Below, in pieces: positions 20,920 to 28,448 of a stretch of DNA of 28,448 nt (the first letter of the stretch is position 1; every line of letters starts with the position of its first letter). The position numbers were made by a program, and so were the translations under genes. Source of the stretch: a virus. The notes beneath the pieces were generated by a model, which saw nothing but the letters and a program-made list of their open reading frames with translations, was not told where the DNA came from and searched no databases. The stretch is taken from the IMG/VR virus record IMGVR_UViG_3300032087_002456, positions 1 through 28,448 of that record. The stretch is one strand, 5' to 3'.

Positions 20920-21468
20920 ATGCCCCACCCAATCTTCGTTACAGGACCACAAAGGAGTGGCACAACAATTGCAGCTCGTATCTTAGCTAACGATCTTGAT
21001 CGTACCTATGTAGACGAGTCTGAATACCACGCAGAGACGCTACCGTCTGATGCTGTTGTACAAGCTCCTTTCCTGTATAAGTTTGTACCTGAATTGTCAT
21101 TTAAACACCCAGGTGCACACTTTATTTTCATGCAGAGAGACAAGCTGCAGATAATTAAAAGTATGGAACGTATCGAGTGGTACAAAGACTACATCGACCA
21201 TCCAGACTTTTATTCCACCTACGTAGATACCGTATACAACACCTTAGATGCTTTTAAGTTGACGCTTACAGAAGATCGGTGGACAGACCTGCAATACGAC
21301 TCACTACGCACACATCCTTTATTTATAAATGACAGAAAGACGTTCACGGCGCGGCAGTGGGAAAAAGACAAGCCCATCGGTCCAACAACCTGGAGAAACG
21401 ACGACTGCGCTAAGTCTTATTCAATCAGACTTCAAGATTTTCCTTCAAGCTCTGTGGCAGCAACTTGA
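20920..21468 (+). CDS. Sulfotransferase-like protein
   Basis: The protein has 182 residues. The P-loop FVTGPQRSGTT (residues 6-16) is the 5'-phosphosulfate-binding motif of PAPS-dependent sulfotransferases. R73 and S81 in MQRDKLQIIKSMERIEWY match the spacing of the Arg/Ser pair that binds the 3'-phosphate. The rest is short for the family (often 250 residues or more), and a late substrate-binding part may be missing. It could transfer sulfate to a host or virion molecule; the substrate cannot be told. The last 140 bases overlap the start of terL in another frame, so its C-terminus and the N-terminus of terL constrain each other. Confidence 0.72.
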   Translation: MPHPIFVTGPQRSGTTIAARILANDLDRTYVDESEYHAETLPSDAVVQAPFLYKFVPELSFKHPGAHFIFMQRDKLQIIKSMERIEWYKDYIDHPDFYSTYVDTVYNTLDAFKLTLTEDRWTDLQYDSLRTHPLFINDRKTFTARQWEKDKPIGPTTWRNDDCAKSYSIRLQDFPSSSVAAT

Positions 21469-23128
21469 CCTGCCTTCCCCTACACGTGCTCAATATGCAA
21501 TTGCTGATTACCTCCAACACGGTCCGAAGCGTTTGCAGATCCAAGCGTTTCGGGGAGTTGGTAAGAGCTGGATTACTGGCGCTTTTGTTCTTTGGGTTCT
21601 ATTCAATAACCCCGAAAAGAAAATCATGATTATCTCTGCGTCTAAAGAACGTGCAGATAACATGTCCATCTTTTTACAGAAACTAATCATTGAAACACCT
21701 TGGCTTAGCCATCTGCGTCCTAAATCTGATGACGCCCGTTGGTCCCGTATATCTTTCGATGTTAATTGCAGTCCACACCAAGCTCCGTCTGTTAAATCAG
21801 TGGGAATCACTGGTCAACTTACTGGTAGCCGTGCTGACCTAATGATTCTTGACGACATTGAAGTTCCTGGTAACTCAATGACGGAAATGATGAGGGAAAA
21901 ACTCCTTCAACTGTGTACAGAAGCTGAATCTATTCTTACACCAAAAGATGATAGCCGCATTATGTACCTTGGTACTCCTCAAACAACTTTCACTATCTAT
22001 CGCAAGCTTGCCGAACGCAATTATCGACCCTTCGTTTGGCCTGCAAGAGTACCACGAAAGCTTAGTAATTACGAAGGACTTATTGCTCCCCAGTTGCAAG
22101 AAGATATCGACAATGGAGCAGAACCTTGGGAAGTAACAGATCCTGATCGCTTTTCTGCTGATGATTTGCTCGAACGTGAAGCTGCCATGGGTCGCAGCAA
22201 CTTCATGTTGCAGTTCATGCTTGACACCTCACTTAGTGATGCTGAAAAATTCCCACTCAAGATGGCTGACCTCGTGGTTACTTCTGTTAACCCTGAAACT
22301 TGCCCTGATTCCATCGTCTGGTGCTCAGACCCCAAAAACGTACTCAAAGAACTACCGACTGTTGGACTACCTGGAGATTATTTCTACAGTCCAATGCAAC
22401 AGCAGGGGGAATGGCTTCCTTACGCTGAAACAATCTGCTCTGTTGACCCGTCGGGTCGTGGAACAGATGAAACAGCTGCGGCTTATATCTCCCAACGCAA
22501 CGGTTTCTTGTACTTGCACGAAATGCGTGCTTATAGAGACGGATACTCAGACAACACACTCTTGGACATTCTGAGAGGGTGTAAAAAATTTGGTGTGACC
22601 AAGCTTGTCGTAGAAACTAACTTTGGAGACGGTATCGTTGCTGAACTATTTAAAAAACACCTTCAACAAACAAAACAAGGTATTGATGTCGAAGAGATCC
22701 GTGCCAATGTCCGAAAGGAAGACCGGATCATTGATACCCTTGAGCCTATACTTAATCAACACCGGCTTGTTGTAGATAAATCCGTCATTGAATGGGATTA
22801 CAATTCCAACAAAGACGAAGCACCTGAAAAACGTCTCATGTACATGCTCTTCTATCAGATGAGCCGTATGTGTCGGGAAAAGGGTGCCGTCAAACACGAT
22901 GACAGATTAGACGCACTAGCACAAGGTGTTAAATACTTTACAGATGCCTTTGGTATCTCAGCACAAGAGGAGATCAACTCACGTAAACGTGATGAGTGGA
23001 ATCAAATGCTTGCTGAGTTCCTAGATGACCCACAAGCAAGTGCTAATCACCTTGTTTTGGGTATGAATTTAGAACAAAGACAAGCTGCAAGCGGTAATCC
23101 CCAAACCACAGTCCCCACCTGGGTTTAG
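21329..23128 (+). CDS. terL: Terminase large subunit (T7 gp19-like)
   Basis: The protein has 599 residues, against 586 in T7 gp19. The ATPase part shows AFRGVGKS (73-80, Walker A) and LMILDDIE (171-178, Walker B with the catalytic Glu). The nuclease part shows D373 in CSVDPSGRGTDE, E429 in VVETNFGDG and D524/D525/D528 in KHDDRLDAL, the RNase H-like acidic set that cuts concatemers. It drives DNA into the prohead together with terS. The ATG at 21329 lies 140 bases inside the sulfotransferase-like gene. The first 28 residues are basic and Ser/Thr-rich, so a later start is conceivable, but no in-frame ATG lies between 21329 and the Walker A region. Confidence 0.95.
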   Translation: MTERRSRRGSGKKTSPSVQQPGETTTALSLIQSDFKIFLQALWQQLDLPSPTRAQYAIADYLQHGPKRLQIQAFRGVGKSWITGAFVLWVLFNNPEKKIMIISASKERADNMSIFLQKLIIETPWLSHLRPKSDDARWSRISFDVNCSPHQAPSVKSVGITGQLTGSRADLMILDDIEVPGNSMTEMMREKLLQLCTEAESILTPKDDSRIMYLGTPQTTFTIYRKLAERNYRPFVWPARVPRKLSNYEGLIAPQLQEDIDNGAEPWEVTDPDRFSADDLLEREAAMGRSNFMLQFMLDTSLSDAEKFPLKMADLVVTSVNPETCPDSIVWCSDPKNVLKELPTVGLPGDYFYSPMQQQGEWLPYAETICSVDPSGRGTDETAAAYISQRNGFLYLHEMRAYRDGYSDNTLLDILRGCKKFGVTKLVVETNFGDGIVAELFKKHLQQTKQGIDVEEIRANVRKEDRIIDTLEPILNQHRLVVDKSVIEWDYNSNKDEAPEKRLMYMLFYQMSRMCREKGAVKHDDRLDALAQGVKYFTDAFGISAQEEINSRKRDEWNQMLAEFLDDPQASANHLVLGMNLEQRQAASGNPQTTVPTWV

Positions 23129-23133
23129 GAGCG

Positions 23134-23226
23134 ATCCCCGCCTTATACAGGAGGAAGGGTGGACCTCCTGTGACTAAGGGAGACGTAACACTCTCCCTTT
23201 ATCTATTTAACCCGGGGATGTTAAAT
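23134..23226 (+). ncRNA. Three tandem hairpins with possible pseudoknot behind terL
   Basis: Hairpin 1: ACAGGAGG (23147-23154) pairs with CCTCCTGT (23164-23171), 9-base loop. Hairpin 2: AAGGGAGA (23176-23183) pairs with TCTCCCTT (23192-23199), 8-base loop. Hairpin 3: ATTTAAC (23205-23211) pairs with GTTAAAT (23220-23226), 8-base loop. All pairs are Watson-Crick. CGGGGAT (23213-23219), in the loop of hairpin 3, is complementary to ATCCCCG at 23134-23140, which would close a pseudoknot. It may be a structured RNA, a processing site, a weak terminator (T-rich stretch after hairpin 2) or a DNA packaging site. The pairing is seen; the role is open. Confidence 0.55.
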
Positions 23227-23358: not shown

Positions 23359-24003
23359 ATGTCACCCGTTACCCTCGTACATTCCACACCTAATGGTGAT
23401 GACCTCGTAGCTTACATGGCACGTGTGTCTAACCCTGATAATCAAAACAACACTGAGACCAGTGATCGTTTGATTAAGTACCTTATTAAACATAAGCATT
23501 GGTCACCCTTTGAGATGGTTAATATGTGTGTAGAAATCAAAACTACACGTAGTATTGCTGCTCAGATCCTTCGTCACCGTAGCTTTAGCTTTCAAGAGTT
23601 CTCTCAACGGTATGCTCAGGTTCATGAACGACCTGTTGTACCTGATATTCGTAGACAAGATGTGTTCAATCGTCAGAATAGTACTGATGATATGGACCCG
23701 TTTGTTACGCAAGAGTTCCAACTTAAAGCTAATCAACTGTTTGATCAGGCGTTGTACCTGTATAACGAGATGCTTTGTGCCGGTGTAGCTAAAGAGTGTG
23801 CACGTGAAGTGTTACCTCTGTCTACTCCGTCAACCTTGTACATGAATGGTACGTTACGTTCGTGGATTCATTACACAGATCTACGTTGTGGTAACGGTAC
23901 ACAATTGGAGCACAAGATCATTGCTGATGAATGTCGTAAATTGATTGAGCAGTGTTTTCCGAAGGTGTTTTCAGCCTTGGAGTCCCTTCAAAAAACGGCA
24001 TAA
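23359..24003 (+). CDS. thyX: FAD-dependent thymidylate synthase ThyX
   Basis: The protein has 214 residues, a normal length for ThyX. The signature R72-H-R74-x7-S82 is present (RHRSFSFQEFSQRYA). Later, LRSWIHYTDLR and TQLEHKIIADECRKL match the flavin and dUMP-binding end of the family. The enzyme makes dTMP from dUMP with FAD, methylene-tetrahydrofolate and NADPH, supplying thymidine for phage DNA. It stands alone behind the late genes, with its own promoter-like region and a long noncoding stretch after it, away from any nucleotide metabolism cluster visible here. This suggests separate, perhaps early, expression. Confidence 0.96.
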   Translation: MSPVTLVHSTPNGDDLVAYMARVSNPDNQNNTETSDRLIKYLIKHKHWSPFEMVNMCVEIKTTRSIAAQILRHRSFSFQEFSQRYAQVHERPVVPDIRRQDVFNRQNSTDDMDPFVTQEFQLKANQLFDQALYLYNEMLCAGVAKECAREVLPLSTPSTLYMNGTLRSWIHYTDLRCGNGTQLEHKIIADECRKLIEQCFPKVFSALESLQKTA

Positions 24004-24059
24004 ATTTCTGAAGGGGAGTAACGACTAGCCGTGACGCAGTTTCCCCCATAGGGGGTGCC

Positions 24060-24114
24060 GCCTTGGCGCGTGTGTGCCCGCGCTAGACATGCGATCTAGC
24101 CATCGCGCCTAGGC
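24060..24114 (+). other. Two-part stem-loop in the noncoding stretch
   Basis: GCCT (24060-24063) and GGCGCG (24065-24070) pair with CGCGCC (24104-24109) and AGGC (24111-24114), giving ten pairs with one T-T mismatch. Inside, GCTAGA (24082-24087) pairs with TCTAGC (24095-24100) around seven bases. It is directly preceded by the CCCCC/GGGGG hairpin at 24043-24055. Confidence 0.5.
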
Positions 24115-24186
24115 ATAGCGTGGTTCCAACTACCGCGCCCCTGCATATGGTGTGCGCGTGAGGTGCATGTGGTGCGATCTGTCGGC

Positions 24187-24212
24187 GACCAGTTCGACAA
24201 CTGTCTTTCTTT
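24187..24212 (+). terminator. Possible weak terminator in the noncoding stretch
   Basis: CAGTT (24190-24194) pairs with AACTG (24199-24203) around CGAC, with two further pairs past a bulged C, followed by the T-rich TCTTTCTTT. The stem is short, so this is uncertain. Confidence 0.35.
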
Positions 24213-27084: not shown

Positions 27085-27453
27085 GTGGTAAACGCCCACC
27101 TAGTTGTGGATCCACTTGCCAACCAGTGCACGGACGCACGCATCGAGAAGGTCCACCAAGCCTTTGATCTGCTGCTCCTGCTGCAGCGTGAGATCCCTGG
27201 TCAATTGGTCAGCACCTTCCTGTACATCGCCTCACACGACGGCTGTCACAAGCAAGCGTTGGAACAGGAGCTGAACATGACCACTGCATCATCCAGCCGC
27301 AACACCGATTGGTTAAGTGATGGACGCATGGGTATCAAGCATGCCGGGTTAGGGCTCATCACAAAGGAGCAAGACGGACGGCGACAAAGACTTCGCCTCA
27401 CACCAAAAGGCAAGCAACTTGCCAAACAAATGAAAACCATCATTTATGGCTAA
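27085..27453 (+). CDS. MarR-like winged-helix regulator
   Basis: The protein has 122 residues from GTG 27085. FDLLLLLQREIPGQLVSTFL begins a helical part, then the helix-turn-helix ALEQELNMTTASSSRNTDWL, then the wing and final helix LGLITKEQDGRRQRLRLTPK. LTPKGK is a common MarR ending. I recall a MarR-like gene beside the integrase in P-SSP7 and relatives. It overlaps the integrase by 8 bases, so both are co-expressed; it may set the choice or timing of integration or early transcription (inference). An inverted repeat in its own promoter suggests self-control. Confidence 0.78.
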   Translation: MVNAHLVVDPLANQCTDARIEKVHQAFDLLLLLQREIPGQLVSTFLYIASHDGCHKQALEQELNMTTASSSRNTDWLSDGRMGIKHAGLGLITKEQDGRRQRLRLTPKGKQLAKQMKTIIYG

Positions 27454-28306
27454 GCAATTCACCTGGGGTGAAGCCGTAGAGACAACGTTGCGAACACGTC
27501 CAACGTGGCGTAACGGATCAGGTCGCAAGCCAGCGATCATCAACTGCGGTCACTTCACCCGACTCCAAGGACTCAGCTTTCCTTGCAACCGCATCAACGT
27601 CACCGTCATGGAAGACATTGGTGTTGAGCTGGAAGAGGAAGGCAAGTCAGACGCCACGATCAACCGTGTCACGTCTGCTGTGTCCACTGTGCTCAACCAC
27701 TGCCATCGGCGTGAGTTGTGCAACAAACCTCCGATGTTCACCAAACGCAAGGAGGATGAAGTGCGCCTCACTTGGTTCTCCAAGGCTGAGGTAGATCAGC
27801 TCATCCACGCAGCGATTGACCCGTTCGATCGCAAGGACGTGGCAGACATCGTTGCTGTTGCTGCTTACACAGGCATGCGACAGGGTGAGCTACTGAAGAT
27901 CAAGGCACGTGACATTGACTTAGGCGCAGGTCTGATTCATGTCGGTGGACGCCCTGATCAAAAGACCAAGGCAGCCAACTACCGTGCCATTCCTGTCCAC
28001 GAACGTATATCAGGGCTGCTCTCTGAGCGTCTTGAGTACCTCTCACCCAACGTGAAGGTGTTCGGTGACGAATGGAATGACAAGGACCAATTGCTGAGGT
28101 CATTCAAGCGAGTACGTAAGTACGCAGGCTTGGATCCGTCCCTTGTGTTTCACAGCTTGCGGCATTCATTTGCCACATGGCATGCAGAAGCAGGGACACC
28201 CATGCGAACACTCATGACGCTCATGGGACACAAGCGCATCGAGACCACCCTTCGTTACGCAAAGACCACGGACTCAGCCTTAAACGAGGCTATGGCTGCG
28301 ATCTAA
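27446..28306 (+). CDS. int: Tyrosine integrase
   Basis: The protein has 286 residues. The catalytic set is visible: R145 in YTGMRQGEL, H236-x-x-R239 in HSLRHSFATWH, H262 in LMGHKRIETTLRYA and the nucleophile Y271. The N-terminal 100 residues form the core-binding domain (DATINRVTSAVSTVLNHCHR); a long arm-binding domain is absent or very short. It would join phage and host DNA at a tRNA-Leu site, as a matching attP core lies 84 bases behind it. The ATG at 27446 overlaps the MarR-like gene by 8 bases. Integration by marine cyanopodoviruses has been proposed from such genes, but lysogens are rarely seen. Confidence 0.95.
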   Translation: MAKQFTWGEAVETTLRTRPTWRNGSGRKPAIINCGHFTRLQGLSFPCNRINVTVMEDIGVELEEEGKSDATINRVTSAVSTVLNHCHRRELCNKPPMFTKRKEDEVRLTWFSKAEVDQLIHAAIDPFDRKDVADIVAVAAYTGMRQGELLKIKARDIDLGAGLIHVGGRPDQKTKAANYRAIPVHERISGLLSERLEYLSPNVKVFGDEWNDKDQLLRSFKRVRKYAGLDPSLVFHSLRHSFATWHAEAGTPMRTLMTLMGHKRIETTLRYAKTTDSALNEAMAAI

Positions 28307-28389: not shown

Positions 28390-28441
28390 GCGGATGTGGC
28401 GGAATTGGTAGACGCGCTAGTTTCAGGTTCCTGAGCGTCTA
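28390..28441 (+). other. Putative attP core: 5' part of tRNA-Leu(CAG)
   Basis: 28390-28428 reads as the first 39 bases of a cyanobacterial tRNA-Leu: acceptor strand GCGGATG, TG, D arm with GCG/CGC and the AATTGGTAGA loop, anticodon strand CTAGT, and the loop TTCAGGT with anticodon CAG. The following bases (TCCTG) cannot pair with CTAGT, so the tRNA is broken exactly after the anticodon loop. TAGACGC (28409-28415) and GCGTCTA (28435-28441) form a perfect inverted repeat centred on that 7-base loop. A tRNA-Leu fragment behind int is known from cyanophage P-SSP7. I call it an attachment site, not a tRNA gene. Confidence 0.8.
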
Positions 28442-28448
28442 AAATACG

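Follow-up and report, generated by a model that had tools for sequence, protein, structure and literature searches.

In bacteriophage T7, the promoter phiOR for the phage RNA polymerase (RNAP) is situated close to the right end of the genome, 99 bp past gene 19, the large-terminase gene. The promoter of the RNAP of phage Syn5 is ATTGGGCACCCGTAA, and in vitro initiation at this promoter by the cognate enzyme has been reported (PMC3950665). In the Syn5 genome, this block starts 6 nt past the last base of the large-terminase gene (terL) and is followed by two hairpins, and a second copy of the promoter is present inside the RNAP gene. Two other systems are comparable in single respects: phi29 pRNA as a small structured phage RNA, and bacterial intrinsic terminators as GC-rich stems followed by T residues. 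The locus that we compare with these systems lies directly behind terL in a 28.4-kb virus record of a marine T7-like cyanophage (28,448 nucleotides; this whole stretch is referred to as the window), in which the structural genes are followed by terL and a thyX-like gene. Its features are as follows.

21329–23128, + strand: terL, open reading frame for a T7 gp19-like terminase large subunit; the element adjoins its 3' end.
23132–23146, + strand: predicted phage RNAP promoter, positions −15 to −1, CGATCCCCGCCTTAT; aligns with the Syn5 promoter ATTGGGCACCCGTAA.
23147–23171, + strand: hairpin H1 (arms 23147–23154 and 23164–23171), 8 bp, loop of 9 nt AAGGGTGGA; predicted 5' hairpin of the transcript.
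23176–23199, + strand: hairpin H2 (arms 23176–23183 and 23192–23199), 8 bp, loop of 8 nt; intrinsic-terminator-like, tail TATCTATTTA.
23205–23226, + strand: hairpin H3 (arms 23205–23211 and 23220–23226), 7 bp, loop of 8 nt CCGGGGAT; AT-rich.
23359–24003, right of terL: thyX-like gene.
27085, further right in the window: MarR-like gene.
27446–28306, further right in the window: integrase.

The terL relatives in viral contigs are 83–94% identical, and phage records label them as terminase or DNA maturase B. The names of the genes besides terL and thyX were obtained by reading the translations and from synteny with P-SSP7 and S-CBP1, without family searches. The RNAP gene lies outside the contig, and the promoter block of the window is known from the terL copy alone. 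Past thyX, positions 24000–24200 resemble by eye the terminal-repeat region at the right end of P-SSP7 and of S-TIP37, and the contig likely runs across a genome end into the early region. The end of the contig behind the integrase (28390–28448) resembles the 5' part of a tRNA-Leu-like sequence and is probably an attachment site; ARAGORN detected no complete tRNA at the contig end, and the tRNA/tmRNA search found none.

A preliminary description of this DNA had reported three successive perfect hairpins and a stretch of the third loop complementary to the strand before the first hairpin. On recheck of the window, all pairs, loops and spacers (GACT between H1 and H2, TATCT between H2 and H3) proved exact, as did the 7-base complementarity of ATCCCCG (23134–23140) to CGGGGAT in the H3 loop (23213–23219). 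The hairpin trio exceeds chance: among 60 first-order Markov copies, not one held three successive perfect hairpins (at least 7 bp, spacing at most 8 nt). Lone hairpins of such size are by no means rare, as 19 occur in the window versus about 15 expected. For the 58-nt stretch spanning H1 and H2, the folding energy was −25.5 kcal/mol (z −3.2), and none of 200 shuffles was equally stable.

The strand before H1 is very probably a promoter of the phage's own RNAP, as judged from genome comparison. The sequence of the block behind terL varies among the 15 reference genomes, yet all of them (15/15) have their own version a second time within the RNAP gene, in the same orientation and near codon 272 (about residue 272 in the P-SSP7 protein). 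Positions 23128–23151 of the window match the copy inside the S-SBP1 RNAP gene at every base. The identity of the two sites was 10.9/12 for own pairs versus 3.9/12 for cross pairs, with 0/100,000 permutations reaching the own-pair value, a figure that is only descriptive because the 12-nt blocks were chosen and aligned by hand after the matches had been seen. The genome-wide scan is cleaner evidence, since the search was not confined to the RNAP gene: the RNAP-gene copy ranked first among the other matches in 13 genomes and second in S-B28 and MedDCM-S45-C4. Low two-site identities were found in MedDCM-S45-C4 (9/12) and NATL1A-7 (8/12). The RNAP residues coded by the block (about 268–272 of P-SSP7) are hypervariable and stand just ahead of a conserved QG, a pattern to be expected where the DNA is preserved for its promoter and the protein sequence yields. 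In S-B28 and MedDCM-S45-C4 (loci L216 and L217), the promoter block occurs a third time, elsewhere in the genome (reverse-complement coordinates 3070 and 11459, respectively). The search behind terL of Pelagiphage HTVC019P and of Mesorhizobium phage Lo5R7ANS gave neither a convincing promoter repeat nor a convincing H1.

In the codon alignment of the RNAP genes, Syn5 reads CGT AAG CAA GGA and S-SBP1 reads CTT ATA CAG GGA. The Syn5 start site was deduced from the published template, in which a tRNA begins with G directly past the promoter (PMC3950665). Since this G aligns with A23147, the predicted +1 is the first base of H1; A23147 would thus be the exact start, and a shift by one or two bases would leave the picture unchanged. 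Biochemical support comes from the single case of the Syn5 promoter, and the promoters of the other genomes are assigned by comparison. The block of the window (CGATCCCCGCCTTAT) differs from that of Syn5 (ATTGGGCACCCGTAA), and the two share the place directly behind terL, a further copy in the RNAP gene (seen for the window block in S-SBP1) and the H1- and H2-like hairpins that come next. With phiOR, the promoter predicted here by comparison shares the position just past the large-terminase gene and close to the right end of the genome; it differs in its specificity bases and in that it nearly adjoins the terL stop codon. By eye, no hairpin pair with the H1 loop follows phiOR, and model R1 gave no match there.

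R1 matched the site behind terL in the window and 13/15 reference genomes (the exceptions being Syn5 and P60), with one off-site match, in L220. R1 derives from the longer form of H1, which explains the weak match in the window (20.1 bits, E 0.22). For the comparison of H1, we fetched the post-terL regions of 80 relatives with the TerL protein; most had the same layout, and the one-by-one inspection covered contigs that did not end near terL. The set was widened with pattern-found loci and reference phages to 95 copies, and thinning of near-identical sequences gave 61 distinct versions of H1. The stems differ among these relatives, and the 8-base loop (A)AGGGTGGA is almost unchanging. This constancy is partly built into the 95-copy set, since copies were gathered by the loop core GGGTGGA and some loci with an H1-like stem pattern. 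The TerL-fetched list is free of the loop-selection bias, and nearly all of its members have the same loop (visible exceptions: L063 and L071); the stems, unlike the loop, were no criterion for choosing the TerL-fetched loci.

The arms of H1 pair around the loop in 61/61 distinct versions, with about 5–13 pairs and often a 2x2 internal loop. Own arms paired at a mean of −12.5 kcal/mol versus −7.6 kcal/mol for arms swapped among the 61 relatives (z −17). Pairs were counted in the ungapped alignment A2 (27 sequences, 29 columns), which holds one form of H1, since a plain MAFFT alignment of both forms misplaces the loop. All 8 tested pairs (8/8) showed two-sided changes, and 98.6% of the cells were paired. 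The two-sided changes amounted to 33 cells versus 8.1 in shuffles, none of 500 shuffles matched this value, and sliding the alignment register sharply lowered it. H1 permits G-U pairs, like an RNA helix. For H2, a stem with a T-rich tail was present in 94/95 copies, and the arm swap gave z −20; the automatic picking of H2 was not strict, which leaves a few of the assignments in doubt (e.g., L112 and L046). The scan for intrinsic terminators recognized H2 by its GC-rich stem and the T-rich tail, and H2 looks like a terminator hairpin. The controls for H1 and H2 leave the shared ancestry of the sequences in, and ancestry alone is an unlikely cause of the H1 covariation because the stem types are so varied. 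The compensatory changes that the preliminary description had named as the check on its proposal were thus found in relatives for both H1 and H2, and the reading of the element as a conserved structured RNA, beyond a simple terminator, is supported.

We consider it probable that the element is a promoter with a hairpin transcript and forms a transcription unit at the right end of this marine T7-like cyanophage genome. The single-subunit RNAP of the phage would initiate directly behind terL, at a promoter positioned like phiOR. Nucleotides 1–25 of the transcript would fold into H1 and display the near-constant loop (A)AGGGUGGA, and H2 would then act as a terminator or strong pause, leaving a stable RNA with both ends protected; with the predicted start at the first base of H1, its length would be about 55 nt. 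As predictions from sequence, the promoter, H1 and H2 are strongly supported, and a discrete short H1-H2 RNA is likely. Termination by the phage enzyme at H2 is presumed, and the main caution concerns this step: H2 may not stop the phage enzyme, because the T7 class I terminator caused no visible termination by Syn5 RNAP in vitro (PMC3950665). What the transcript would do is proposed more tentatively. The position suggests a phiOR-like role, and the fixed loop sequence suggests a binding partner; it is conceivable, at somewhat less than even chances, that right-end transcription serves replication priming and/or concatemer packaging and that the H1 loop docks a conserved phage or host protein. 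In a more speculative version, which we regard as rather improbable, the phage polymerase would make a small RNA from a promoter dedicated to it at the right end; the near-constant loop of this RNA would draw the machinery of packaging or replication, or else a host factor, to the end of the genome, and transcription would thereby mark new concatemers for packaging.

The same locus can be explained without such a transcript. It might simply hold an intrinsic terminator of the usual kind at the end of the late operon, H1 and H3 being incidental; this would agree with the terminator score of H2 and with the TTCG loops in several relatives. Such an explanation is nevertheless very unlikely, since H1 equals H2 in conservation, keeps a fixed loop sequence and coincides with the start predicted for a matched promoter; bacterial terminators, which share the GC-rich stem and the following T residues with H2, leave H1, its constant loop and the promoter match unexplained. 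The pairing of the H3 loop with the strand before H1 into an RNA pseudoknot, proposed in the preliminary description, did not hold up in relatives. The 7 complementary bases are present in the window and in relative L195, but the longest complement is only 2–6 nt in the remaining relatives with H3. Moreover, own loops and strands paired no better than swapped ones (−6.2 versus −5.9 kcal/mol, z −0.9; 19% of permutations were as good). H3 itself is limited to a subset of 25 distinct relatives, whose stems fall into six types (AATGTCC/GGACATT, ATTTAAC/GTTAAAT, ATTCAAC/GTTGAAT, AATATCC/GGATATT, GATGTCC/GGACATC and a shorter form), and many relatives lack it. As the upstream strand precedes the predicted transcript start, it is better read as promoter DNA, and we give the pseudoknot hardly any credence. 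Pairing of the H1 loop with an upstream CCACCC strand was rejected by inspection, without a formal test: the loop is constant and the upstream strand varies between genomes, so this is not a kept helix. The element had also been considered as a terminase cleavage site or concatemer junction, that is, as a genome end. Its place directly behind terL and the transcription-linked signals that T7 has near its right end would speak for this. Exact terminal repeats were found in Syn5 (237 bp), P-SSP7 (206 bp), S-TIP37 (150 bp) and S-SBP1 (180 bp), and in these four reference genomes the element lies 1,006–1,417 bp from the right genome end, off the terminal-repeat boundary. With the ends 1.0–1.4 kb further to the right, the cleavage site is contradicted in these four, and we practically dismiss it. 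Terminase recognition, a link to packaging and RNA processing, which the preliminary description also listed, are conceivable roles.

Two further explanations accept the promoter and differ in what follows it. The element might be the promoter, leader and leaky terminator of a small operon behind terL, where H1 just stabilizes the 5' end and H2 tunes read-through, without a separate RNA function. A same-strand gene does begin 130–230 nt past terL (thyX in the window; PSSP7_052 and talC in P-SSP7), and H2 is terminator-shaped and may be read through by the phage RNAP (PMC3950665). However, the downstream gene varies between phages while the H1 loop is constant, and a plain 5' clamp needs no fixed loop sequence; we hold this explanation possible but unlikely. 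Alternatively, the product might be a small RNA that acts in trans, either by base pairing of the H1 loop with an RNA of the phage or host or by titration of an RNA-binding host protein. An unpaired loop on top of a stable hairpin, near-invariant while stem and promoter vary, would suit such a function, but no conserved complement of the loop was found: TCCACCC was not enriched in 13 genomes (10 occurrences versus 14 expected), and TCCACC stood 90–193 nt downstream of the loop in only 20/95 copies. This makes a trans-acting RNA distinctly doubtful. GTCCACC, the complement of the loop part GGTGGAC, occurred 34 times versus 18 expected on the sense strand of 13 reference genomes, with no conserved site.

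The promoter with a short hairpin transcript, which remains our preferred reading, was compared with known RNAs. In Rfam 15, the window and five relatives had no match at the gathering score, and a permissive search gave chance-level hits only. The phi29 pRNA offers a loose analogy as a small structured phage RNA, the present one being encoded beside a packaging gene; phi29 belongs to another phage family, and pRNA differs from the window element in that the latter has no Rfam match. In the literature, mainly open-access, the hairpin RNA was undescribed, and promoters at two sites were described only for Syn5. The promoter part therefore appears to extend the known Syn5 case and the hairpin RNA with its constant loop appears to be the new part, a provisional statement because the search excluded most subscription papers, among them the main paper on Syn5 RNAP (PMC3561573).

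The cyanophages concerned are abundant marine viruses. A genome-specific promoter at two matching places means that the promoter of a cyanopodovirus could be read from its sequence alone, and a defined RNA element near the right end could bear on the start of replication and on the marking of concatemers for packaging. Since genetics has been published for S-TIP37 (PMC8776855), changes of the loop and of the promoter are directly approachable in this phage.

The viruses carrying the element are ocean viruses of Synechococcus and Prochlorococcus. The Syn5/P60 clade differs from the other relatives in having the loop AGTGGTG and an extra near-constant spacer of about GTGTGGATATGCGGTGA between the two hairpins; loci of this clade with both traits are L331, L359, L361, L369 and L375. 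In a scan of bacterial and archaeal genomes, most pattern matches were due to chance. The element was present in two Prochlorococcus assemblies, one Synechococcus assembly and one metagenome bin (L274, L300, L286 and L280), which are most likely cases of phage DNA within cellular assemblies.
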